In this document: piece after piece, positions 725 to 26,703 of the stretch
Position numbering within the stretch: position 1 is the first letter of the stretch
Layout of the letters: the number at the start of each line of letters is the position of its first letter
Origin: Acidobacteriaceae bacterium
Lineage (GTDB): Bacteria; Acidobacteriota; Terriglobia; Terriglobales; Acidobacteriaceae
Assembly: GCA_025360645.1 (NCBI GenBank)
Contig: JANYBT010000004.1
Location: forward strand, 1-37,492
Length of the DNA: 37,492 nt
Reading direction: 5' to 3'
The notes under the pieces: generated by a model
Told to the model about the DNA's origin: nothing
Database searches by the model: none
Seen by the model: the letters and a program-made list of their open reading frames with translations, nothing else
Program-made: the position numbers and the translations under genes

Positions 725-2158
725 CTACCGCCTCAGCTCCTCCACCACTTCCCCGTCCGCCGCCACTACTTGCACCTGCAGCATCATGTGTCCATCGGCG
801 TGGGTGGAACAGCTCAGGCATGGATCATAGGCGCGGATCACCGCTTCCACCCGGTTCAACATGCCTTCCTTCAGCCGGTCGCCGCGGACAAAATGCTTGG
901 CCACCTGCAGGATGCTGCGGTTCATTGCCAACCCGTTGTGCCCGGTTGCGATGATCAGATTGACCCATCGAATCAGTCCTTGCTCATCAATCTTGTAGTG
1001 GTGAATCAAGGTGCCACGCGGGGCTTCCGCCACTCCCACGCCCTCCAGACAGTTGGGCCGCGCGAACGCGCGCACATGTTTATTTAAAATATCAGGGTCG
1101 TCCAACAACTGTTGCATGCGCTCCACGCAATAGAGAATTTCGATCAGCCGCGCGTGGTGGTAGTGAAACGAACTCAGCACGGCGGTACGCTGCAACTCGT
1201 GGAACTCCGCCAACTCCTGGTCGGCGAGCGGAGTGCCGCAGCGATCGGCCAGGTTGAGCCGAGCCAGCGGCCCCACCCGATAAATTCCGTCGGGGTAGCC
1301 CCGCGGCTTGTAATACGTGGACTTCAGGTAACTCCACGGTTCCACTTTTTCGCCGATGTAGTCGTTGTAGGCCGCCGGATCCAGCCCGTTCTCCACCGTG
1401 TTGCCCGCGGCATCAATCACCCGGATCTTACCGTCGTAGAAAGTCAGCCCGCCGTCGTCCTTGACCATGCCGAGAAACAGAGTCGGGAAATTTCCGAATG
1501 ACGCAATCTCCTCGCGAAACTTTTCCATCGAACCCTTGAACCACTCCAACGTGCTCTCGGCGATGGCAAGCACCTCGGGAATGCCGGCAAGGATGGCGTC
1601 GCGGTCCGCCACCGAAAGCGGTGCGCTTACTCCTCCCGGCACCATCCATGCCGGATGGATCCGCTTGCCTCCCAACCGCTCGATGATCTGCTGTCCGAAT
1701 TGACGCAACCGGATGCCGCTGCGCGCAATCTCCGGCTTCACCTGCGCCAGCCCAATCAAATTGCGCGTGGCCGGATCGGAATCCAGTCCCAGCAGAAAAT
1801 CCGGCGAAGACAGGTAGAAAAAACTTAGCGCGTGCGATTGCAACACTTGAGCCAGGCCGAAAATGCGGCGAAGCTTTTCGGCGGTGGGCGGAATGCGGAC
1901 AGCCAACAGCGCATCGCAAGCTTTGGACGACGCGATCAAATGGCTGACCGGACAAATGCCGCAAGTGCGCGCCATCAGCGCCGGCATCTCGGAGAAGGGA
2001 CGCCCTTCGCAAAATTTCTCGAAACCGCGGAACTGCGTCACATGAAAGCGGGCGTCTTCAACTCGGCCCTGCTCGTTCAGGTGCAGAGTGATTTTGGAGT
2101 GGCCCTCGATGCGAGTGACCGGGTCAATAACAATGGTTCGTTTGCCGTTTTCGCTCAC
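725..2158 (-). CDS. hoxH: Group 3d [NiFe] hydrogenase large subunit HoxH
   Basis: Catalytic subunit of the NAD(H)-linked bidirectional hydrogenase. It holds the NiFe(CN)2CO centre, interconverts H2 with protons and electrons, and works in the cytosol with HoxY. The four nickel-ligating cysteines are in place: L1 motif RTCGIC (C66, C69) and L2 motif DPCLSCSTH (C447, C450). The protein continues 24 residues past His453, so it is a precursor that needs a specific endopeptidase (HoxW type) to cut after that His. Length (477 aa) is normal for HoxH. It is the last gene of hoxEFUYH, starting 4 bp after the hoxY stop. The maturation genes (hypABCDEF, hoxW) are not in the window and must lie elsewhere if the enzyme is active. 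The L1 and L2 motifs and the diaphorase neighbours point to group 3d rather than 3b or 3c. Confidence 0.95.
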
Positions 2159-2162
2159 CGCG

Positions 2163-2696
2163 TCATGCTCCGAAGCGCGTTTTTGCGCTCAGTTCAGGCA
2201 TTCGCCCTTCCAGCAATTCGGAAAGCGCGTAGAAAATAGTATCGGCGGAGGGCGGACATCCGGGGATGAATACGTCCACGGTCACGAACTCGTGCACGGG
2301 GCGTGATTTGGCGAGCAGCGGCGGAACCATCTCGCCTGGAATCTGCGGGTCAAGCGTGACGTTCTCCTTGTAAGCCCGGTCGTAGATGGCCTGCAACGGA
2401 AACGGATTGCGCATTCCCGGCACGTTCGAGGTGACCGCGCAATCTCCCAGCGAGACCAAAGTCTTGGTGCGCTCGCGCACCATACGGATTTTGTGCAGGT
2501 CATCTTCGCTGCTGACCGCCCCCTCTACCAGCGTCAGGTCGACATCGAGAGGAAACTCCTTGACGTCCACCAGAGGCGAGTACACCAGATCGACTTTTTC
2601 TGCGATGAGCAGCAGGCGTTCGTCCAGATCCAGAAACGACATGTGGCATCCCGAGCAGCCATCCAGCCACACTGTCGCCATGCGCAGCTTGCTCAC
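2163..2696 (-). CDS. hoxY: [NiFe] hydrogenase small subunit HoxY
   Basis: Electron-transfer small subunit that pairs with HoxH. It carries the proximal [4Fe-4S] cluster and passes electrons to the diaphorase part. At 177 aa it is the short, single-cluster form typical of group 3d enzymes; it lacks the C-terminal domain and Tat signal of uptake hydrogenases. Expected cluster ligands are visible: C14 and C17 in DGCSGCH, C86 in GDCA and C147 in PGCPP. It overlaps the end of hoxU by 4 bp and precedes hoxH by 4 bp, so translational coupling is likely. The absence of a signal peptide agrees with a cytosolic enzyme. Confidence 0.94.
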
Positions 2697-3407
2697 GAGC
2701 GGTCCTCCTCGCGCATCTGCGTGAGATACGGCAAGAACTGGCGGCGCTTCAGCATCTCAGCCACCGACTTGCCTTTCTCGCTCAAGGCTCCGGTGGGGCA
2801 AACATGCACGCACTTGCCGCAACCGGTGCAGGTTTGCGAAGAGCCCCAGGGTTCGTTGAGGTCGGTGATGACTTTGGCGTCGATGCCGCGGCCCATCACG
2901 TCCCAGGTGTGAGCGCCTTCTATTTCTTCGCAGACGCGAACGCAGCGCGTACACAGGATGCAGCGGTTGTGATCCACAATAAAGCGTTCGTGGGAGGCGT
3001 CCACCTCCGCCTCGGGATAGCGGTACGCAAAGTGCACGTGAGTGATTTCGAGTTTCTGCGCCAGGGATTGCAATTCGCAGTGGCCGTTGGAGACGCACAC
3101 CGCACACACGTGGTTGCGTTCGGTGAACAGCAATTCCAGAATGGCGCGGCGATATCCCTGCAGTCGCTCTGAGTTGGTGGTGACTTCCATCGCCTCTTCG
3201 ACGCGCGTGACACAGGCAGGCTGCAAGCGCGCTGTACCCTTCACTTCCACCAGGCAAAGACGGCAAGCGCCCACGTTCGACAGGCCTTTCAGCGTGCACA
3301 GGGTCGGAATGAAAATGCCGTTTTCGCGCGCCACCTCCAGAATTGTTTCGTTCTGGCGGGCACTGACGTCGCGGCCGTCAATCTTCAGCGTCTTGATGTT
3401 GGCGGCC

Positions 3408-3415
<8 letters not shown>
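2693..3415 (-). CDS. hoxU: Diaphorase subunit HoxU (NuoG N-terminal-like ferredoxin protein)
   Basis: Iron-sulfur subunit that relays electrons between HoxY and the flavin subunit HoxF; homologous to the N-terminal part of complex I NuoG. In order: a plant-type [2Fe-2S] site (C40, C51, C54, C68), a His/Cys-ligated [4Fe-4S] site (NHVCAVC...HC), and two [4Fe-4S] ferredoxin motifs ([11 protein letters not shown] and [11 protein letters not shown]). At 240 aa it matches HoxU and lacks the molybdopterin-like domain of full NuoG. I chose ATG at 3415, not the longer frame to 3460, because GAGGAAG sits 6 nt upstream and the extra residues are unlike the family. The start overlaps the hoxF stop by 8 bp. 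Confidence 0.94.
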
Positions 3416-5040
<1,625 letters not shown>

Positions 5041-5051
<11 letters not shown>

Positions 5052-5559
5052 GCGAGTTCCATTTGGCCAGACGGTCGCGCAGCGCCGCTGGAGTGACTTT
5101 GCCGGCAACTTCGTGGTCGTACACCACCGCCGGAGCCAGTCCGCAAGAACCTAGACAACGGGCGGTGAGCAGCGATACTTTGCCGTCGGCGGTGGTTTGC
5201 CCCGGAGTTACGCCTAAGTCCTGCTTCATGGCCGAAACCAGCTGGAGTGCGCCCTTGATGTAGCAGGCGGTGCCCATGCAAACCACGCAAGTATGTTCGC
5301 CGGCGGGTTTGAGGGTGAAGAAATGGTAGAAGGTGGCCACTCCATAAGCGCGACTAAGTGGCACGCGGAGTGAGGATGCAACATAGCGGAGGGCCTCCAC
5401 GTCAAGGTAGCCGAACGCTTCCTGGACGGTGTGCAGCGCCTCGATCAGTCCTCGCTGCTGATTGCCCAGGCGGCGCATGGTGGTATCCACCAACCGCCAG
5501 CGTTTGTCATCGCTAGGATGTGGAGTCTTCGGAAGTTCGAGAACCGCAACCGCTCCCAC
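5041..5559 (-). CDS. hoxE: Diaphorase subunit HoxE (NuoE-like [2Fe-2S] protein)
   Basis: Thioredoxin-like [2Fe-2S] subunit of the hydrogenase diaphorase module, related to NuoE. It may offer an extra electron entry point, for example for ferredoxin. The four ligands are C94-x4-C99 and C135-x3-C139. Length is 172 aa. The start codon is GTG at 5559, preceded by GAGG about 6 nt upstream. It is the first gene of hoxEFUYH, and the five genes overlap or nearly touch, so they form one transcript. Presence of hoxE separates this operon from the four-subunit Cupriavidus-type enzyme and links it to the five-subunit type best known in cyanobacteria. Confidence 0.94.
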
Positions 5560-12553: not shown

Positions 12554-12943
12554 GATGACCTTTGAGAGCAGTGGAGAGGCTGGTTTTGCATGGCAGGCTA
12601 GGCTAAATACTTGCGGCGGAGAAGTCCAGACGATGGGATGGCATCACGAGCAAACCGTAAGGCGGAGCGCAGCATCCAAGATTTGCCGACAAGCAGGAAG
12701 GGTTCGCTGTATTGATAGCTGGCGGCGGCGCTGGCAAGGTGATCGGTTTGGGCGATCGGAATTGGTCACTTTTGACCACTCCTCAAGTTCTGATTGAGAA
12801 GATAATCAAGGAACGCCCATTCGTCCCGTAGACGACACGCTCGACCAGAAGCGAAGGCGACTGGTCGGAGCCGGAAACTCTGGTTTCACCAATGCCGGAG
12901 GACTCACCTCTTCCAAGACGCGACGGCAAGGAATCGAGGAATT
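12554..12943. other. Divergent intergenic region
   Basis: About 390 bp between the start of the GH38 gene (minus) and the GT4 gene (plus). It must hold both promoters. The clearest element is a perfect palindrome at 12763-12778. No coding frame here looks real. Confidence 0.6.
12763..12778. promoter_or_regulatory. Palindrome TGGTCA-N4-TGACCA (copy 1)
   Basis: TGGTCA-CTTT-TGACCA, with perfect 6-bp arms and a 4-bp spacer, lies about 170 bp upstream of the GT4 gene. The same arms and spacer length recur at 24559-24574. Probably an operator for a dimeric regulator; the regulator is unknown. Confidence 0.5.
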
Positions 12944-15373
12944 ATGTCGTACCCCAACACGGACATCTCCCCAGGAAGACTGGAACTCATGGGCCCGCGC
13001 GTCGTGGTGCCGGAAGAGGTTCCAGCGCCCCGCGCATGGTTGCATGCAAAGTTGTCTCTGCCCACACGAATCGCGGTAGTGGGCAATTATCTTCCGCGGC
13101 AGTGCGGAATTGCCACCTTCACGACCGACCTCTGCGCCGCCTTGACCGCGGAGTATGGGACGGCCCGTTTATTGGCGCTGCCGGTGAACGACACGGAAGA
13201 AGGGTACGACTATCCGGCACCGGTGCGCTGGTCTCTCAACCAGGACGAAGTGGAGTCGTATCGGGCGGCCGCAAAATTTCTGAACTTCAATAATATCGAC
13301 ATGGTTTGCCTGCAGCACGAGTATGGCATCTTCGGCGGCCCCGCCGGCAGCCATATCCTGCATCTGCTGCGTGGCCTGAAGATGCCGGTCGTGACCACGT
13401 TGCACACTGTCCTGCGCGAGCCCGACCCGAATCAGCTGATGGTCATGGAACAACTTGCGGAGCTTTCGGATCGCATCATCGTGATGAGCCAGCTTTCCGC
13501 GCAGTTCTTGCAGGAAATTTTCAAAGTACCCGGAAGCAAGATCGACATCGTTCCCCACGGGGTCCCGGACTTGCCCTTCTCAGACCCGAATTTTTACAAG
13601 GACCGCTTCGGTGTGGAAGGAAAGGCGGTGCTGCTTACCTTCGGCCTGCTCTCGCCGAATAAGGGAATCGAAAACGTAATCCGGGCGCTGCCCGACATCC
13701 TGGCGAGGCACAACAATGTGGTTTACATTGTGGCGGGCGCGACCCACCCCCATCTTCTTCGCCGCGAAGGCGACCGATATCGAGCGCAGTTGCAGGCTTT
13801 AGCGAAGGAAATGGGCGTCGAATCGAGCGTAATTTTTCACGACCGCTTCGTCAGTCCAGGCGAGATGGCCGAGTTCATTGGCGCCGCGGATATTTACCTC
13901 ACTCCCTATCGCCATGAAGCGCAAGTGGTTTCCGGTACGCTTGCCAATGCCATGGGTGCGGGGAAGGCCATCATCTCGACTCCGTACTGGCATGCCCTGG
14001 AATTGCTAGACGAGGGACGCGGCGCGCTGGTCCCCTTTCAAGACCCCGGCGCCATCGCCCAAAAGACCATAGAACTTCTGGACACTCCGGCAATACGCCA
14101 TGCCATGCGCAAACGAGCCTACCTGTACTCGCGGGACATGGTCTGGAAAAAAGCCGCGCAGGGTTACATGGGGAGTTTCGAGCAGGCGCGCATTGATCGC
14201 ATGCGGGCGCCGCGGGTGACGTTTGCGGACCGGATTCTGGAAAAGCGACTCAACCAGCTTCCCGCCCTCAAACTGGACCACCTGCATCGTATGACCGACG
14301 ACACCGGTATGCTGCAGCACGCGATTTTTGCCGTTCCCAATTACGACGAAGGGTACACTACCGACGATAACGCCCGCGCGCTTATTCTCGCGGTTCTGCT
14401 GGGACAACTCGAGGCCAGGGAGACTCCCGCGGTGGACCACCTTGCCTCGCGGTATTTGGCGTTTCTGGGGCATGCATTTAACCCCGCCAACGGAAGGTTC
14501 AGAAACTTCCAGAGCTATGAGCGCAAGTGGCTGGAAGCCGAAGGCTCCGAAGACTCTCATGGGAGAGCTCTGCGGGCGCTGGGAACGGTTCTGGGCCGCT
14601 CCAACGATCAGTCTCTGTGCGGTGCCGCGGGACGCATATTCGAGTTTGCCGTCCCAGCCGTGCTTGCCTTCAGCAGTCCGCGGGCTTGGGCCTTTGCACT
14701 GCTGGGGCTTGAGGAATATCTGGCGGCCTTTCCGGGCGACCGCGATGCTCAGAAAATGAGTGCGGCCCTGGCCGGGCGGCTGGTCGATATGTACCATTCC
14801 AACCAATCCCCAGGCTGGTCGTGGTTTGAAGACGTGGTGGCCTACTCGAATGCCAGGCTGCCGCAGGCGGTGTTGATGGCTGGGCATCGCACCTCAGACA
14901 GTGCTATGGTATCGGTTGGTCTGGAAGCCTTGGATTGGCTCAGCTCGCTCCATCGTAGTGACGAGAACAACCACTTCGTGCCGATCGGCTCGCAGGGGTT
15001 TTACCGCAAAGGGAGCGGTCGAGCTCGCTTTGACCAACAACCGGTGGAAGCGGGTGGGGCGGTGTCCGCATCTCTCGCCGCCTATCGCATCACCGGAGAC
15101 GATCGCTGGCGGAAAGAGGCTTGGAGGGCATTCAATTGGTTTCTGGGGAGCAACGACTTGCAGATTCCCCTGTATGATGCCATCACTGGCGGTTGTCGGG
15201 ATGGGCTTCATCCCGAGCGTGTGAACGAAAATCAGGGAGCGGAGTCCACCCTGTCTTTCCTGATGGCGCTAGTCGAAATGCGATTGTTGGGAGAATCCGA
15301 TGGCAGGCAGACGAGCTGGGATCTGTTTAGCACCGGGATGGACGGGACGTTGCTTCCATCACCGGCGTATTAG
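12944..15373 (+). CDS. Family 4 glycosyltransferase with C-terminal helical domain
   Basis: A cytosolic 809-aa protein. The first 420 residues are a GT-B retaining glycosyltransferase of family GT4: the N-terminal RQCGIATFTTDL motif, a second Rossmann half beginning LLTFGLLSPNKGIENVI, and the donor-site region near YRHEAQVVSGTLANAMGAGKA. The remaining 380 residues form a helical domain with DDTGMLQHAIFAVPNYDEGYTTDDNARALI, of the alpha/alpha-toroid type, seen in a set of GT4 proteins that occur beside GH130 genes. GAGG lies 5 nt before the ATG. The GH130 gene follows 30 bp later on the same strand. The pair probably builds and trims or recycles a mannose-containing oligosaccharide; the exact product is unknown. 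Confidence 0.85.
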   Translation: MSYPNTDISPGRLELMGPRVVVPEEVPAPRAWLHAKLSLPTRIAVVGNYLPRQCGIATFTTDLCAALTAEYGTARLLALPVNDTEEGYDYPAPVRWSLNQDEVESYRAAAKFLNFNNIDMVCLQHEYGIFGGPAGSHILHLLRGLKMPVVTTLHTVLREPDPNQLMVMEQLAELSDRIIVMSQLSAQFLQEIFKVPGSKIDIVPHGVPDLPFSDPNFYKDRFGVEGKAVLLTFGLLSPNKGIENVIRALPDILARHNNVVYIVAGATHPHLLRREGDRYRAQLQALAKEMGVESSVIFHDRFVSPGEMAEFIGAADIYLTPYRHEAQVVSGTLANAMGAGKAIISTPYWHALELLDEGRGALVPFQDPGAIAQKTIELLDTPAIRHAMRKRAYLYSRDMVWKKAAQGYMGSFEQARIDRMRAPRVTFADRILEKRLNQLPALKLDHLHRMTDDTGMLQHAIFAVPNYDEGYTTDDNARALILAVLLGQLEARETPAVDHLASRYLAFLGHAFNPANGRFRNFQSYERKWLEAEGSEDSHGRALRALGTVLGRSNDQSLCGAAGRIFEFAVPAVLAFSSPRAWAFALLGLEEYLAAFPGDRDAQKMSAALAGRLVDMYHSNQSPGWSWFEDVVAYSNARLPQAVLMAGHRTSDSAMVSVGLEALDWLSSLHRSDENNHFVPIGSQGFYRKGSGRARFDQQPVEAGGAVSASLAAYRITGDDRWRKEAWRAFNWFLGSNDLQIPLYDAITGGCRDGLHPERVNENQGAESTLSFLMALVEMRLLGESDGRQTSWDLFSTGMDGTLLPSPAY

Positions 15374-18655: not shown

Positions 18656-19378
18656 TTACTTCTGGTCTTCGCTTTTCTTCATTTCCTCGACGCGAGCATG
18701 CTGGCCGGCATCCGCAACCGCTTTCATGAAGGCATCGGCACTGCTTGGGGTCGCCACCTTCCCCGAGAGGATGTTTCGGAACTCCATATGCTTGCCATAG
18801 ATGGCGCGGGTGGAATCGTCATCCTGTTGCACCACCGCACCTTCGAGGGTGAGGCCGGCGAATACCCCTTTGGAGCGGGAGTAAGTCAACACTTCCGTGT
18901 TCATTTTCCAATCGGTTCCGGCAGAAGCGTGACGACCCACCGGTCCCGCGGCCACCGATCCTTCTCCCGTAAGTTCGAATTTGCTGGAGAGCAAATGCTG
19001 CAGGCCCTGGTCGTTCATGACAAGCATGATCAAGTCCACGTCTTCCACGCCGATTTGCAGTCCCCAGCTTCCACCTCCCACGGATACGAAGGCAGGCGCG
19101 CTCCACCCAGTGGTAGTACGGCAGGAGGCGATACCCCGTCCGTGCTTGCCGCCGACGATGAAGCCGCCTTTTATCAGATCTGGGACGACGACGATGCACT
19201 TCGCACTTGCCAACACTTCGTCGGGGATTCCTTTGTCGGGCGCACTCATAACGGCGTGCAGCACATCGACAGACGATTGCAAGCGCGCGACTGAGTCTTG
19301 GCTGGAAGAGCCCGCCCAAGCCATCGTTCCAAATAAGCCAACGAGGGCCATTAGCGATACGGAAATTGCTTTTTTCAT
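18656..19378 (-). CDS. Exported SYLF-domain (Ysc84-like) lipid-binding protein
   Basis: 240 aa with a signal peptide (MKKAISVSLMALVGLFGTMAWA). The SYLF domain follows: IPDEVLASAKCIVVVPDLIKGGFIVGGKHGRGIASCR near residues 50-85, then GWSAPAFVSVGGGSWGLQIG, DLIMLVMN, the AAGPVGRHASAGTD region and a late YSRSKGVFAGLTLEGA. In eukaryotes SYLF binds phosphoinositides; in bacteria it appears in periplasmic or outer-membrane proteins of unclear role. It sits in a cluster of envelope genes. The start is ATG at 19378 with AGG in the leader. Confidence 0.9.
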   Translation of the reverse strand: MKKAISVSLMALVGLFGTMAWAGSSSQDSVARLQSSVDVLHAVMSAPDKGIPDEVLASAKCIVVVPDLIKGGFIVGGKHGRGIASCRTTTGWSAPAFVSVGGGSWGLQIGVEDVDLIMLVMNDQGLQHLLSSKFELTGEGSVAAGPVGRHASAGTDWKMNTEVLTYSRSKGVFAGLTLEGAVVQQDDDSTRAIYGKHMEFRNILSGKVATPSSADAFMKAVADAGQHARVEEMKKSEDQK

Positions 19379-19766
19379 AGAGGTTCCTTAAACTGCTGCG
19401 AGACTAAGAGGAAACAACTTCAGATGCGCTGCCTTAGCTCAGGAAACCTGAAAGAGAGAAAAGACCTTCTCGCTCTGCTTTGATGATCGCATCGGCCCCA
19501 CGCAATAGATGTTCTGAATTGCTCACTCTGGCTTTCCCCTCGCCTCCTGCAAGACCACGACCTCGAGCGGATTCTTTCGTGAATGTGAGCAATCCTGCAC
19601 AGTCTCCCGGCCCTGCTCCTGTCATCCTCATAGGGCTGGAGCGATACAATCATTGGGTTCTCAAGCATTTGGGTTCTCAAGCAATGGGTTCTCAAGCTCG
19701 CTCCCGCACCACGTTCATTTTCAGCCCAGGGTGTAGCGCTTGGGAGAAAGAGCGGAAGGCCACTGG
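19379..19766. other. Divergent intergenic region with short tandem repeats
   Basis: About 390 bp between the SYLF gene (minus) and the zinc-ribbon gene (plus). It contains a small palindrome TCAGG-AAA-CCTGA at 19439-19451, about 60 bp upstream of the SYLF start, and the tandem repeats at 19654-19697. No gene is visible. Confidence 0.5.
19654..19697. repeat. Three tandem copies of TGGGTTCTCAAGC
   Basis: The 13-mer TGGGTTCTCAAGC starts at 19654, 19670 and 19685 (periods of 16 and 15 bp), with similar linkers (ATT, AA). It lies 70-110 bp upstream of the zinc-ribbon gene. It may be a short slippage repeat or a multi-copy regulator site. Confidence 0.6.
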
Positions 19767-20126: not shown

Positions 20127-20273
20127 ATGCTTTGGACGATCGTCGTGGTTCTTGCCATTTTGTGGCTTCTGGGTTTTAGCATGCATGTGGGTGGAGGCCT
20201 TATCCACCTTCTGCTCGTCATCGCCCTGGTGGTGGTCGTGATCAACTTGTTGAGCGGTCGCCGGGCAGTCTAG
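20127..20273 (+). CDS. lmo0937-family small membrane protein
   Basis: A 48-aa protein: MLWTIVVVLAILWLLGF, a short polar turn (SMHVGGG), then LIHLLLVIALVVVVINLLSGRR. The two spans, the LWLLG motif and the ending INLLSGRR are those of the lmo0937 family, a group of unknown function. AGGAG lies about 8 nt upstream of the ATG. A strong terminator follows 110 bp downstream. Confidence 0.85.
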   Translation: MLWTIVVVLAILWLLGFSMHVGGGLIHLLLVIALVVVVINLLSGRRAV

Positions 20274-20654: not shown

Positions 20655-21008
20655 GTCCATTGGAATTAAGTAGAAAGTGAACGGCGGCCCACACGAAATG
20701 CGGACCGTCAGAGGTCCGCTACCATAACGTCCACGGACTTCAGTGCGTCTTCCGGCAATTCCAAAGGGTCCGCCACCATGACGATGGGAATTTTCGATAG
20801 GATTTGTTTAATCTCAGACGCGGACAAATGCGCCGTCAAGCAAACCCAATTGGTACTCCAGAACAATTGCATCCACGCTCTGGGACGAGAGCAGCCGAAG
20901 ACCTTCGTAGCCGGTGCTGGCGGTCAAGAATCGGTATCCGTGTTCCCTCAACAGGCTCAACTGAGCCGGGTCCCGGCGAATGCAAAGTAGTGTGCTGTTC
21001 GTCGCCAT
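20655..21008 (-). pseudogene. Frameshifted response-regulator receiver domain gene
   Basis: The first part reads MATNSTLLCIRRDPAQLSLL and continues through LTASTGYEGLRLL and VDAIVLEYQLGLLDGA, a CheY-like receiver fold in which the usual phospho-Asp region is altered (VLEYQLG). After A-F-V the frame breaks near 20819-20824 (one extra C). The next frame continues SEIKQILSKIPIVMVADPLELPEDALKSVDVMVAD. A second one-base shift near 20713-20716 leads to SDGPHFVWAAVHFLLNSN, the usual end of this receiver family. Three frames thus add up to one normal 115-120 aa protein. Two separate shifts argue for a true pseudogene rather than one sequencing error. The second shift lies inside a perfect 7-bp inverted repeat (GCGGACC/GGTCCGC). 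Confidence 0.75.
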
Positions 21009-21071
21009 GGCCTCAGGTGTGCAACTAGCCGTCCTATGAGTGCCGTTCAACAACATTGTTAGTCACGAATG

Positions 21072-21151: not shown

Positions 21152-22117
21152 CTAGCGAAGCGATTCGAAGTTCAGAATCTGACCCAAGATCCCACCGAGA
21201 ATGCTATACGAGCCGTTGGAATAGCGACCATATCGATAGCGGCTCTCAAAGCCGTCTTGATACCCGCGCTGAAAGCCTTCGCGGAAGTAGTAGTTGTATT
21301 CATTTTGGTCCACGTAATACCCGGTGTAGCCATAGTTCGCGTCCTGATAGGCATACGCATCGCGGTAGTTGGAACGCCAGTGATCCTGCCGGTCCGCCTG
21401 TCCGGTGCGGAAACCTTCTGCGTAGCCGTAGTTCACGGCCCGACGGAGCAAGTCAGCCCGGTACTCATTCGCCTCATAGTAGTTGCCGCCACGATAGTAC
21501 CGGTAGATCGGAGCGGTGTAGAAATACGGATCATTTTCGTAATCGTGTTCACGGTCCTCGTCGAAGCGTGCTTGCTGCTGCCGCATGCGCTCCAGGTAAT
21601 CTTCCTGGAAGCGATACTGGGCTTGGCGATGTTCTTGCTGCAGCCGCGCCGCTTGCTGCTGGGCCGCCTGCTGCCGCTGCTGCTGATCACCCTCGTGTTG
21701 GCGGTACTGCGCTACCCGCTGTTTCTGCTGCGCTATGAGCTCCTGCTGACGCTCCTTGGACAACCGTTGTTGCTGTTGCGCCTGCGCGTTTTGTTGCTGG
21801 TGCTGTTTGTTCAAGTCTTGCTGTTGCTGTTGTTTTCGCTCGGCCTGCTGTTGCTGCTGATCCTTTTGCTTCTGACTCTGGTCCTGTTTTTGCTGCTGAG
21901 CGCGATCTTGCTGTTGTTGCTCCTTCTGTTGTCGTGCGCGCTCCTGCTGTTGTGAATCGGGCTTAGCCTGCTTTTCGCCCTTCTGCTCCTCGGGCTTGGC
22001 TTGCTCTTCGCGCTTGGTCTGGGGCTCCTGCGGGTCCTGCTGCGCATAGGCAGGAACGATGGTGATTGCAATCAGACACAACAAGACTGCGGTGCCGGTG
22101 ACTCCAAATGTCTTCAT
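21152..22117 (-). CDS. Exported glutamine-rich protein of unknown function
   Basis: 321 aa with a signal peptide (MKTFGVTGTAVLLCLIAITI...AYAQ). Residues 25-180 are almost entirely Gln, Lys, Glu, Arg and Ala, with runs of up to five Gln, probably extended or coiled-coil. The C-terminal 130 residues are rich in Tyr, Asn, Arg, Asp and Gly, with YGYAEGFRTGQADR and YYFREGFQRGYQDGFESRYRYG, which resemble the repeating YxxGxxxGxxD segments of exported soil-bacterial proteins. I recognise no named family. The low-complexity codons (CAG/CAA) make this stretch prone to length change. It is followed by a good terminator. Confidence 0.7.
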   Translation of the reverse strand: MKTFGVTGTAVLLCLIAITIVPAYAQQDPQEPQTKREEQAKPEEQKGEKQAKPDSQQQERARQQKEQQQQDRAQQQKQDQSQKQKDQQQQQAERKQQQQQDLNKQHQQQNAQAQQQQRLSKERQQELIAQQKQRVAQYRQHEGDQQQRQQAAQQQAARLQQEHRQAQYRFQEDYLERMRQQQARFDEDREHDYENDPYFYTAPIYRYYRGGNYYEANEYRADLLRRAVNYGYAEGFRTGQADRQDHWRSNYRDAYAYQDANYGYTGYYVDQNEYNYYFREGFQRGYQDGFESRYRYGRYSNGSYSILGGILGQILNFESLR

Positions 22118-22298
22118 AATAGTATTGCCTCACATTTCAGAGTAAGCGGGTTGGGAGTTGCTTGACTGTCTCCTTTTGACCACTTTCAACAAGGGAAGAA
22201 GTCGCGGCAGTACCTCCGATTGGGGCATTTTCGCGATCTTGCCTCAAACGAATTTTACGTCGAAACCTTTGGCATCGGCTAGCGATTGTCGAGTAACT

Positions 22299-22526
22299 TC
22301 AGCCTTTCAACCCTCCGCTGCGCCCACCGGCGATGCTCAGCGCGATGCCGCCCACAATCAGCACGGCGCTAATCACCGGCGACACCCGTTCGCTGTGGGT
22401 GGTCTGCACTCCGAGGTTAACGCCTCCAGCTCGAATTCCCTCGGTCTGGGTACGGGGAATCGGCACCACCAAAGACAAGACTCCAAGCGAGATTAGCAGC
22501 AGGCCTGCAAGTAGCAGCATTTTCAT
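22299..22526 (-). CDS. Small two-span membrane protein
   Basis: 75 aa: an N-terminal hydrophobic segment (MKMLLLAGLLLISLGVLSLVV), a polar middle (PIPRTQTEGIRAGGVNLGVQTTHSER), and a second span (VISAVLIVGGIALSIAGGR). The layout resembles DUF3185-type small membrane proteins, but I am not certain of the family. ATG at 22526 has AAGGA about 8 nt upstream; the frame extends to 22559 without a good start. It lies in the same strand and cluster as the other short envelope proteins. Confidence 0.65.
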   Translation of the reverse strand: MKMLLLAGLLLISLGVLSLVVPIPRTQTEGIRAGGVNLGVQTTHSERVSPVISAVLIVGGIALSIAGGRSGGLKG

Positions 22527-22764
22527 AGCGAGTCCTTGCGACGGCGTTCCTGCCGTCATGTTTTATTCTGAACACTTGCGCCCAGAAAACTTTGCACAAT
22601 TGCTCAGTCGACCCTTCGGGCAGATTCCAACAACTTAAGAAGCTCACCGGCTGCCAGCTTGGGCGTGCTCGGGTCAGCAGCCGTGAGCCACCGTTCTCCT
22701 TACTCAGTTGCTAATTTCAGGAGTAAAGGTTTTCACGATGATCCAACTTGCGAAAGCGGAAAAC

Positions 22765-22780
22765 TGTTCAACATTGAACA
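22765..22780. promoter_or_regulatory. Palindrome TGTTCAA-N2-TTGAACA
   Basis: TGTTCAACATTGAACA: perfect 7-bp arms around CA. A near-identical element stands at 23230-23247, and half-matches at 23031-23050 and possibly 22590-22607. All are in non-coding DNA around small membrane protein genes and the CRP/FNR gene. Probably sites for one regulator. Confidence 0.55.
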
Positions 22781-22822
22781 CTATTCCTGCCGTTCGAGTT
22801 TCCCTGAACCGCTGCACCGCGT

Positions 22823-22963
22823 TCAACCTGTGCTCAGCAGCCTCATTGTCAGTCTTATTAATTCTACCCACAAGAAGACGCTGACGGCGAAAGCCCCGCT
22901 GATTCCTGCGAGTTTGCTCAACGACCACACACCGTCTTCCACGATGAGTTCTCGATTCCCCAT
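22823..22963 (-). CDS. Possible 46-aa single-span membrane protein
   Basis: MGNRELIVEDGVWSLSKLAG, then one hydrophobic span (ISGAFAVSVFLWVELIRL) and a short end (TMRLLSTG). The frame opens upstream to 23014, but ATG at 22963 has a purine-rich GGAAGGCAAGGGG just before it. No family is recognised. Support comes from the membrane span, the ribosome-binding site and the setting among similar short genes; the evidence is thin. A candidate operator half-match lies about 70-85 bp upstream. Confidence 0.4.
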   Translation of the reverse strand: MGNRELIVEDGVWSLSKLAGISGAFAVSVFLWVELIRLTMRLLSTG

Positions 22964-23030
22964 GGCCCCTTGCCTTCCTACTGACCAAAAACATCTTCCC
23001 ATTCCCATTTTCAATAGCCAGACACGGAAA

Positions 23031-23050
23031 GCTGTTCAATACTGCTCAGC
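23031..23050. promoter_or_regulatory. Degenerate copy of the TGTTCAA palindrome
   Basis: Read on the minus strand, CTGAGCAG-TA-TTGAACAG: the right arm equals that of the sites at 22765 and 23230, and the left arm is degenerate. It is placed 68-87 bp upstream of the putative 46-aa gene. Confidence 0.35.
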
Positions 23051-23146
23051 CCTGGCTTTTTTATGAGCCGATCGGGATTGAAGGTAGAAGCCGGCCAACG
23101 GCGGAGGAGATTTCTTGACCGCACGTCCCCGCTACTTTGCGGCAAC

Positions 23147-23175
23147 AAAAAAGCCGCCTGTTGAGGTCGGGCGGC
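23147..23175 (-). terminator. Rho-independent terminator downstream of the CRP/FNR gene
   Basis: On the minus strand GCCGCC, an 11-nt loop, GGCGGC, then six T. It is 117 bp after the regulator stop codon at 23292. It would end that transcript, or a short RNA starting near 23230. Confidence 0.75.
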
Positions 23176-23229
23176 ACGACGGATGATGGGATGAACCTGA
23201 TTTGATTATCAACAATCGAACTGAGAAAG

Positions 23230-23247
23230 CTGCTCAAAATTGAACAG
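23230..23247. promoter_or_regulatory. Palindrome CTG(C)TCAA-N2-TTGAACAG
   Basis: CTGCTCAA-AA-TTGAACAG: 7 of 8 arm positions pair. It lies between the regulator stop (23292) and the terminator at 23147-23175, an unusual place for an operator of a known gene. Confidence 0.5.
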
Positions 23248-23291
23248 TCCGTGATTTTTATTTACACCCGCTTACTCTTGAAGGAAGGGGG

Positions 23292-23990
23292 CTAAGCGCT
23301 CTCGTTATCGGGATTCACATCGTGGAGGACGACGTTCAGCAGCGAGCTGTGAACTTCCAACGAACCGTTGTAGTGAATGAAACCCAATTTTCGAAACCGG
23401 TTCATGAAGAAGCTGACCCGCGAACGCGTTGTGCCTACCATTTCGGCCAGGGTCTCCTGACTGACCTTGGTGACCACCTTCTCCGGCACTCCGTCCTTGC
23501 CAAAGTGAGCCAGCAGCAGCAAGATACGGGCCAGTCTCTTTTCGCTGGAGTTGAACAGGTGATCGACCAGGTCCTCTTCGTAACGGATGTTCCGCGCCAG
23601 CAAGTAGGCAACGAAGAGATCGGAAAACGTATGCTCGCGATGCAGCGCATCCATCATCGCCCTCTTCTCGATGCGCATCAGTTGACAATCTGTCATTGCG
23701 GATGCGGACCCCATCCGAAGAAGCTGCCCTGCCAGCGCCCCTTCTCCAAAAAAGTCTCCCTCGCCCAAAATGCCGATGGTGGCACCTTTACCCGCCTTGG
23801 ACACGACGGTGAGCCTGATCTTGCCTTTTTGGATGTAGAAAAGGGAGTCCGCCAAATCCCCTTGGCCATAGACCCCTTTCCGCTTGGAAACGGCGAGCTG
23901 CCTCCTGCCGTCACCAATGGTGGCCAGGAAGGCGTTAGGGTCGAACTCGCGGATTTTTGGGACCGCCTTGAGGGGCGTCATAGCGTTCAT
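23292..23990 (-). CDS. CRP/FNR-family transcriptional regulator
   Basis: 232 aa. Residues about 20-140 form a cyclic-nucleotide-binding-like beta barrel (FYIQKGKIRLTVVSKAGKGA, then ILGEGDFFGEGALAG), followed by the dimer helix and a winged helix-turn-helix with SQETLAEMVGTTRSRVSFFMN at about 177-197. No N-terminal FNR cysteines are seen, so it is not an iron-sulfur oxygen sensor. In the recognition helix the Arg of CRP is kept, but the Glu that reads the core G:C pair is Ser. Its target therefore probably differs from TGTGA or TTGAT. ATG at 23990 has GGGAG upstream. It is the only DNA-binding regulator in the window and sits next to the unusual palindromes. Confidence 0.92.
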   Translation of the reverse strand: MNAMTPLKAVPKIREFDPNAFLATIGDGRRQLAVSKRKGVYGQGDLADSLFYIQKGKIRLTVVSKAGKGATIGILGEGDFFGEGALAGQLLRMGSASAMTDCQLMRIEKRAMMDALHREHTFSDLFVAYLLARNIRYEEDLVDHLFNSSEKRLARILLLLAHFGKDGVPEKVVTKVSQETLAEMVGTTRSRVSFFMNRFRKLGFIHYNGSLEVHSSLLNVVLHDVNPDNESA

Positions 23991-24339
23991 GGCATACTCC
24001 CAGTTTCCAATCGGCGCAATTTAATAATAGAGCAGAAAAGTTCGCTCCTCCAGTGCCGGGATCTGGCACAGAGTATTTTTGCCCTATTCACTCGATCGCT
24101 TATGAAATGGCGGCTCGGAAGTTTCTGTTGCCGTCGCTTCTATTTTCCAGCTTAAACTTCATGCGTTTCAGGGCGAAATAGGGGGAAACCTGTATTTTTA
24201 GTAGCCGTGTGCGGTACGACAACGGGAGCCGATTTCGGGCGAAAGGCAAGAGGCTGCGGTTGCAGGACGTTGTGCTCAAACGCAGGAAAGGCACCCTGCT
24301 CCGGTGTGCCAAAAGGTGGGCTGGCGTCCCTCCATGCGA
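23991..24339. other. Intergenic region
   Basis: About 350 bp between the small zinc-finger gene and the regulator start. It must carry the regulator promoter. I see no clear gene, repeat or RNA. Confidence 0.5.
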
Positions 24340-24492
24340 TCATCGTTTTCGACTGGAGGGACTAGCCGGTTCGCTCGCCTCGTCCGGCCCAACCAAGCGC
24401 CGGTCTCGATGAGGATCAGTTCGCGTTTGGCCGGTGCCGAGTTCACATTTCTCGCCAGGCTTAGCCCCGCAGGTGGGACAACGAATCGACAT
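24340..24492 (-). CDS. Small zinc-finger protein (CPxCGAxPGxxC...PHxDR)
   Basis: 50 aa: MSIRCPTCGAKPGEKCELGT, then GQTRTDPHRDRRLVGPDEAS. The C-P-x-C-G-A-x-P-G-x-x-C motif plus the later P-H-x-x-R is a small zinc-binding module found alone or inside actinobacterial and phage proteins; its job is unknown. ATG at 24492 follows AGAGAAG. Two copies of a TGGTCA-N4-TGAC palindrome lie upstream, at 24501-24516 (next to the start) and 24559-24574. This suggests the gene is tightly regulated. Confidence 0.65.
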   Translation of the reverse strand: MSIRCPTCGAKPGEKCELGTGQTRTDPHRDRRLVGPDEASEPASPSSRKR

Positions 24493-24500
24493 CGCTTCTC

Positions 24501-24516
24501 TGGTCATGGGTGACAT
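24501..24516. promoter_or_regulatory. Degenerate TGGTCA-N4-TGACCA palindrome (copy 2)
   Basis: TGGTCA-TGGG-TGACAT, 4 of 6 bases of the right arm kept. It is 9 bp upstream of the zinc-finger start and overlaps its ribosome-binding region, so binding there would block expression. Confidence 0.35.
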
Positions 24517-24558
24517 GGGTGCCATGCGATCATGGTGCGTCTTTGCTCAACAGAAAGC

Positions 24559-24574
24559 TGGTCAATTGTGACCA
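24559..24574. promoter_or_regulatory. Palindrome TGGTCA-N4-TGACCA (copy 3)
   Basis: TGGTCA-ATTG-TGACCA: perfect 6-bp arms and the same 4-bp spacer as the site at 12763-12778. It stands 67-82 bp upstream of the zinc-finger gene. Confidence 0.5.

Positions 24575-26628: not shown

Positions 26629-26703
<75 letters not shown>

Follow-up and report, generated by a model that had tools for sequence, protein, structure and literature searches.

The locus analysed here holds copies of the palindrome TGTTCAA-N2-TTGAACA among small genes, beside a gene for a Crp/Fnr-type regulator, which raises the question of what the palindromes are and whether they belong to that regulator. By the window we mean the whole stretch of 37,492 nucleotides that was analysed; its source genome comprises 3.82 Mb in 158 contigs.

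Palindromes and regulator in the window

Four copies of the palindrome were listed in a preliminary description, and all were recovered. The perfect copy was exact at 22765-22780 (TGTTCAANNTTGAACA); the near-perfect copy, given as 23230-23247, lies at 23231-23246 with one mismatch; the one-arm copy, given as 23031-23050, lies at 23033-23048 with three; and the weak copy, given as 22590-22607, lies at 22591-22606, has more than three mismatches to the string and scored 16.4 with a matrix trained without the window. All four lie outside called genes, as had been described, and the reported consistent spacing to start codons was also found (22591 is 64 bp upstream of ATG 22526, and 23033 is 69 bp upstream of ATG 22963). 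The window contained six matches to TGTTCAANNTTGAACA with up to three mismatches, vs a mean of 1.05 and a largest value of 4 in 100 shuffles. With the matrix, from whose training the window was held out, eight sites scoring at least 14 were detected, vs a mean of 0.14 and a maximum of 1 in 100 dinucleotide shuffles; those at 24559, 19510, 19586 and 12763 were absent from the earlier list. The eight candidate operators and the regulator gene are:

12763..12778 (.), candidate operator TGGTCACTTTTGACCA, score 21.3
19510..19525 (.), candidate operator, score 20.0; GATCAT 22 bp past it, toward the Ysc84 gene (hexamer by eye)
19586..19601 (.), candidate operator between the Ysc84 and lmo0937-family genes, score 24.1
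22591..22606 (.), weak candidate operator, score 16.4
22765..22780 (.), candidate operator, perfect TGTTCAACATTGAACA, score 26.8
23033..23048 (.), candidate operator, score 24.8
23231..23246 (.), candidate operator 45 bp past the regulator stop codon, score 25.9
24559..24574 (.), candidate operator TGGTCAATTGTGACCA before a small zinc-ribbon ORF, score 15.9
23292..23990 (-), Crp/Fnr-family regulator of 232 aa with recognition helix GTTRSRVSFFMNRFRK; Pfam cNMP_binding 1.5e-16, HTH_Crp_2 5.1e-11

An Rfam and tRNA search of the window returned one tRNA-Asn at 26629-26703 and nothing else at gathering level, and an identity of the palindromes with an Rfam element or tRNA was rejected.

A degenerate putative operator motif

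A single genome scan of GTDB with six peptide patterns, among them the helix peptide FFMNRFRK, yielded 536 loci encoding proteins related to the neighbouring Crp/Fnr regulator. The best 80 of the 536 (465 kb), which are mutually related and include several from one assembly, were used to refine a symmetric matrix, with the window excluded. The matrix reads TGNKCA-N4-TGMNCA with A-rich and T-rich edges, of which TGTTCAA-N2-TTGAACA is one form. In the same 465 kb the string itself had 1, 9 and 53 matches at zero, one and two mismatches, that is, 63 vs none for five rearranged palindromes. The matrix found 250 in-sample sites scoring at least 14, vs 1-2 for each of five column-permuted controls, and 241 of the 250 fell outside called genes, 64% of the bases being coding; genes were called with a codon-usage script that missed short genes, the 46-aa gene of the window included.

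From 203 distinct sites scoring at least 18, 66 were aligned, one from each locus that had such a site (14 of the 80 loci had none), and the G and C of each half were invariant. The half-sites varied, 510 of them including TGAGCA (129), TGGTCA (89), TGTTCA (67) and TGTGCA (54). A motif-free count of dyads upstream of 81 regulators ranked CTG-N8-TGA first (47 vs 10.6 expected), and this top dyad is the operator motif.

A genome-wide scan for the string, which had been proposed as a check, returned only two matches with zero or one mismatch in the 3.82 Mb, both in the window; 16 further places matched with two mismatches, and a reversed control pattern had six in all. The exact scan was discarded as a test for a regulon, since alone it suggests none; the string is one form of a degenerate operator. 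Relaxed patterns gave 10 matches vs 2 for the control (TGNNCAANNTTGNNCA) and 29 vs 3 (TGNKCANNNNTGMNCA) in the same genome.

Association of the predicted operator with the regulator across genomes

The proposed tie between the palindrome and the neighbouring regulator gained strong support from the presence of the same predicted operator beside relatives with the same helix, from the avoidance of coding DNA and from a relation to copy number. Among 150 genomes of the family, the regulator was present in 85 (E up to 1e-40), in up to 11 copies, and pattern hits averaged 8.15 in these genomes vs 2.09 in the 65 genomes lacking it. The mean rose from 2.09 at zero copies to 4.34, 7.25, 10.48 and 15.75 at 1, 2, 3-4 and 5-11 copies (Spearman rho = 0.75, vs a weak 0.17 for a reversed control pattern). 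A residual excess was seen in genomes without a close relative (2.09 vs 0.45 for the control). At the phylum level the relation was weaker, with means of 3.5 in 18 genomes with the regulator and 1.24 in 177 without it; four genomes with only a remote relative, set apart, averaged 3.0, and two genomes of the phylum set (G061 and G153) had the regulator and no pattern hits.

Sites clustered around the regulator in six of eight regulator-bearing genomes that were chosen (G084, G171, G095, G147, G103 and G113); G019 and G153 showed no such cluster with the pattern, and the matrix nonetheless found a site beside both regulators. Six acidobacterial relatives of 57-64% identity (L118-L123), obtained by a whole-genome protein search, were held out, and five of them carried a site scoring at least 16 within 3.6 kb; relatives in L122, L129 and L131 had no site of 14 or more. 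Of five loci of other Crp paralogues in the source genome, one had a site (16.1) and four had none scoring 10 or more.

Regulator relatives also occurred on plasmids of peat and root alphaproteobacteria. Eight of nine plasmid records with a relative were analysed, the ninth (35.7% identity) being left out, and in these held-out loci 11 sites scored at least 14, vs a mean of 0.35 and a maximum of 2 in 40 controls. Sites were found in three of the four plasmid loci with a one-frame regulator (Bradyrhizobium, Methylocapsa or Methylocystis) and in two of three acidobacterial plasmid loci. When 22290-24050 was compared with plasmids at the DNA level (6 records), similarity was confined to the regulator gene. 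The Bradyrhizobium sp. CB82 plasmid locus (L127) carried a broken regulator copy, no annotated gene and no operator scoring at least 14 within 4 kb, which is consistent with a joint loss of regulator and sites.

Two genomes from a single family (G123 and G165) contained several copies of a different exact palindrome, TGCGCACTTTTGCGCA, and a close relative of the window regulator was not found in either.

Promoter geometry

The distance from each site to -10-like hexamers was counted for 255 of 258 sites, those omitted being near-duplicates or lying less than 120 bp from the end of a locus. Over both orientations, hexamer starts were most frequent 22 bp (75 of 510) and 23 bp (46 of 510) beyond the site, against a background of about 5, and at the 122 sites with one divergent neighbour only, the corresponding counts toward the gene were 30 and 17, the best count away from it being 9. 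A hexamer at 21-24 bp past the edge was present for 128 of 255 sites, vs 10-30 in other 4-bp bins, and the share with a match climbed with site score from 4/15 to 8/10; the other 127 sites had no match at the expected place. Among regulators with upstream sites, considering the first site only, 19 of 56 had a match and 6 had one at a control distance. The spacing puts the centre of the operator close to -41.5, where CRP and FNR bind as class II activators, and matrix and spacing together agree with a two-fold Crp/Fnr operator in class II position. All four sites of the preliminary description had a minus-strand -10-like hexamer 21-22 bp away, on the side that faces the small genes; these, together with two further features, are:

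12801-12806 (+), GATAAT, 23 bp past the 12763 operator, toward the GT4 glycosyltransferase gene (by eye)
22565..22570 (-), -10-like CAGAAT, 21 bp past the 22591 operator (by eye)
22738..22743 (-), -10-like GATCAT, 22 bp past the 22765 operator (by eye)
23007..23012 (-), -10-like GAAAAT, 21 bp past the 23033 operator (also scored separately)
23147..23175 (-), intrinsic-terminator-like hairpin and T run after the 23231 operator (sequence, folding)
23205..23210 (-), -10-like GATAAT, 21 bp past the 23231 operator (also scored separately)

The 23231 operator and its GATAAT sit between the regulator stop codon and the terminator-like hairpin (window 23145-23198, minus strand). Transcription from this putative promoter might give an RNA some 50 nt long, or continue beyond the hairpin into the 46-aa gene. 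Of 96 regulators, that of the window among them, 24 had an operator no more than 250 bp beyond the stop codon; upstream of the window regulator's own gene, no site was closer than 569 bp.

Predicted target genes

The genes next to the window sites were the following:

12944..15373 (+), GT4-type glycosyltransferase gene, then GH130 phosphorylase gene; predicted target (Pfam)
18656..19378 (-), Ysc84-domain gene; predicted target (Pfam 2.1e-37)
20127..20273 (+), lmo0937-family small membrane protein gene; possible target (NCBIfam NF033488 2.7e-15)
22299..22526 (-), gene for a 75-aa small protein, membrane-like by eye, ORF and gene call, no Pfam family; predicted target
22823..22963 (-), 46-aa gene, one hydrophobic stretch by eye, ORF missed by the gene script; predicted target
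24340..24525 (-), 61-aa zinc-ribbon-like ORF; predicted target (Pfam Phage_zn_bind_8 4e-10)

The 46-aa protein, queried without its first Met, had a weak NCBIfam YmiC match below the cut-off. When genes within 400 bp of sites were tallied over 81 sources (the best 80 of 536 loci and the window), the recurrent neighbours were the regulator itself, in a cluster of 59 of 215 genes, a receiver-domain protein (26), Ysc84 (20), GT4 (15) and lmo0937-like proteins (8). Other neighbours included CsbD, BON, PRC-like, Hsp20-like, peptidoglycan-binding and ice-binding proteins (PRC and Hsp20 by eye), and plasmid neighbours were annotated by others as CsbD, 'general stress protein' and AI-2E transporter. 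A common theme of envelope, osmotic, cold or drying stress would fit these genes.

The suggestion of a compact regulon held in part: six of the 29 relaxed-consensus matches lie in one 12-kb stretch of the window, but high-scoring sites occur elsewhere too. Beyond the window, sites scoring 18.9-25.2 were found in the source genome before a BON-domain gene (contig C3), before an aquaporin gene (C26), between a DUF6600 gene and a divergent glucan phosphorylase gene (C144), and before an ice-binding-like gene (C114; by eye; its relative in L050 matches PF11999). A further site (C32) stands before an unnamed 453-aa gene. A sequence-only model (R1), with which 150 of 752 candidates were scored, gave at least 22 matches at 13 places in the same genome. 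Random scatter in coding DNA, which had been named as the adverse outcome, does not describe the 241 of 250 locus sites, but several other relaxed matches in the source genome lie within called genes and are chance-like.

In many related loci an operator precedes the receiver-domain gene. By eye, the window copy (20708-21056, minus strand) is divided over two frames, and no operator lies a short distance upstream of it; it is either a decayed copy or an assembly error. A 321-aa glutamine-rich, secreted-looking protein is encoded at 21152-22117 (minus strand), with a weak operator-like sequence (11.8) at 22167, 50 bp upstream of its start. Genes resembling a soluble NAD-linked [NiFe] hydrogenase cluster (by eye) occupy 725-5559 (minus strand).

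Recognition helix and sensor domain of the regulator

Pfam domains of the Crp/Fnr superfamily (PF00027, 60.6 bits, cut-off 27.5; PF13545, 42.8 bits, cut-off 27) and an alignment of the helix upheld the earlier reading of a CRP/FNR-type regulator with a non-standard recognition helix. Of 99 related reading frames, including that of the window, 97 carried GTTRSRVSFFMNRFRK or a close variant, a conservation that is partly selected for because FFMNRFRK was among the six scan patterns; of the other two frames, one was cut by a contig end and one was a broken copy. Among the matches listed, the closest relatives were in Terriglobia/Acidobacteriaceae assemblies.

In the alignment, GASRETVNK of PDB 3h3u, which we take to be the CRP of M. 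tuberculosis, faces GTTRSRVSF of the window protein. The first Arg of CRP is kept, and Ser, Arg and Phe stand at the places of its Glu, Thr and Arg (presumably Glu181, Thr182 and Arg185). This change would match the change of the operator from TGTGA to TGNKCA: the Arg that reads the outer G in CRP is kept, likewise the outer G, and the new Arg may read the G opposite the conserved C. A structure prediction too poor to count as evidence (mean pLDDT 48.3, residues about 150-220 better, sensor domain failed) has a helix at 189-202 that begins at the Arg of TTRSR.

The Arg column of the phosphate-binding cassette was R in 90 of 94 relatives, and the column after it was Met in 85 of 94. CRP has Ser/Thr in that column, and with Met there, cAMP is therefore not to be assumed as the ligand. 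The NCBIfam profile search of the window protein gave 11 matches, none of which passed its cut-off.

Probable class II activation and competing explanations

Motif, subfamily association, non-coding location, -10 spacing and gene content all come from the computation itself, and they make it probable that the 23292-23990 protein and its subfamily are class II activators of an envelope and stress regulon that often includes their own gene, with the palindromes as their operators. A dimer would bind TGNKCA-N4-TGMNCA, with the near-invariant G of each half-site 7 bases and the near-invariant C 4 bases from the centre. From a position some 41.5 bp ahead of the transcription start, it would replace the -35 element and activate, rather than repress, promoters having a -10 box. 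Targets would be small membrane proteins, Ysc84, BON, CsbD and ice-binding-like proteins, aquaporin and storage-sugar enzymes, with the regulator's own gene very often among them.

Were the regulator mainly a repressor or dual in action, the -10 spacing would reflect competition with RNA polymerase at -35. The site does cover the -35 region, half of the sites are without a -10 match at the class II distance, and a match is less common (19/56) among regulators that have upstream sites, as would be expected of negative autoregulation; but repressor sites usually scatter across a promoter, and the single fixed spacing of -41.5/-42.5 (75 and 46 of 510 vs about 5) is an activator arrangement, so that we regard this reading as unlikely. 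Binding by another factor, for example a second Crp/Fnr protein regulating this regulator, appears very unlikely: the motif excess that persists where a genome lacks a close relative and the site at one paralogue locus of the source genome speak for it, but the number of operators depends on regulator copy number, the same motif stands beside the same recognition helix in two phyla, and 4/5 paralogue loci have no site scoring at least 10. Several copies within 660 bp with CTTTC-like flanks in common could also be copies of a mobile or structural DNA repeat, a chance that we put close to nil, since conservation falls on the positions expected of a two-fold protein site, and the bases between them are degenerate; a repeat or transposable element was ruled out by the fixed spacing to the -10 box, which already contradicts it, together with the variable half-sites.

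Significance of the predicted regulon

The regulator is a little-studied CRP/FNR relative and seems to turn on small genes for envelope and stress functions in many bacteria of the soil. Acidobacteriota abound in soils, and few of their transcription circuits have been worked out. The operator matrix, the promoter geometry and the regulator-to-helix code make the targets of an uncharacterised Crp/Fnr subfamily readable from genomes, and unnamed small membrane proteins gain a shared regulatory context. The binding prediction can be checked with one protein and one oligonucleotide.

In all 33 within-assembly paralogue pairs the HTH domain was better kept (mean identity 88.7%) than the sensor domain (75.4%), though all 4371 pairs showed the same trend (85.3% and 69.3%). 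We tentatively put forward a network of 'many sensors, one operator', which we hold to be somewhat less than an even chance; the shared operator does multiply with paralogue number in the 150 genomes of the family. Such a network, if true, might take the place of a general-stress sigma factor in this phylum, the Acidobacteriota.

Comparison with known systems

With E. coli CRP the regulator shares its domain plan, and the predicted operator shares the 16-bp two-fold core with T and G at -8 and -7 and the class II position at -41.5. Its half-site is TGNKCA, unlike the TGTGA of CRP, and Met follows the cassette Arg. The combination that marks CRP proper, a helix R-E-x-x-x-R/K with TGTGA-N6-TCACA, was not found in the window protein and its operator, nor was the cassette Arg-Ser/Thr (Met in 85/94), and the CRP equivalog NF008732 reached 46.4 bits vs a cut-off of 266. 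FNR and FixK belong to the same superfamily and have the class II activator geometry, but their operator, TTGAT-N4-ATCAA, differs from the learnt matrix, and the window protein has no Cys in its first 100 residues, where FNR has its N-terminal Fe-S cysteines.

The best NCBIfam match of the window protein was Thermus TTHB099, which we take to be LdrP (NF052518, 54.3 bits vs a cut-off of 300). Its operator is likewise a 16-bp TG...CA palindrome, but of a different consensus, TGT(A/g)...(T/c)ACA (PMC7662524). The literature searched contained no description of this operator, helix or subfamily, so that we have here a Crp/Fnr subfamily with an operator not found described there; the RhizoBindingSites database (PMC7674921, cited in PMC10454721) may hold the Bradyrhizobium motif under another label. 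The operators of HcpR (TTGTGAnnnnnnTCACAA and atTTGAccnnggTCAAat) differ from those predicted here, as do its targets, and HcpR resembles the window regulator as an orphan Crp/Fnr regulon from comparative genomics in which a change of the helix accompanies a change of the operator (PMC545781).
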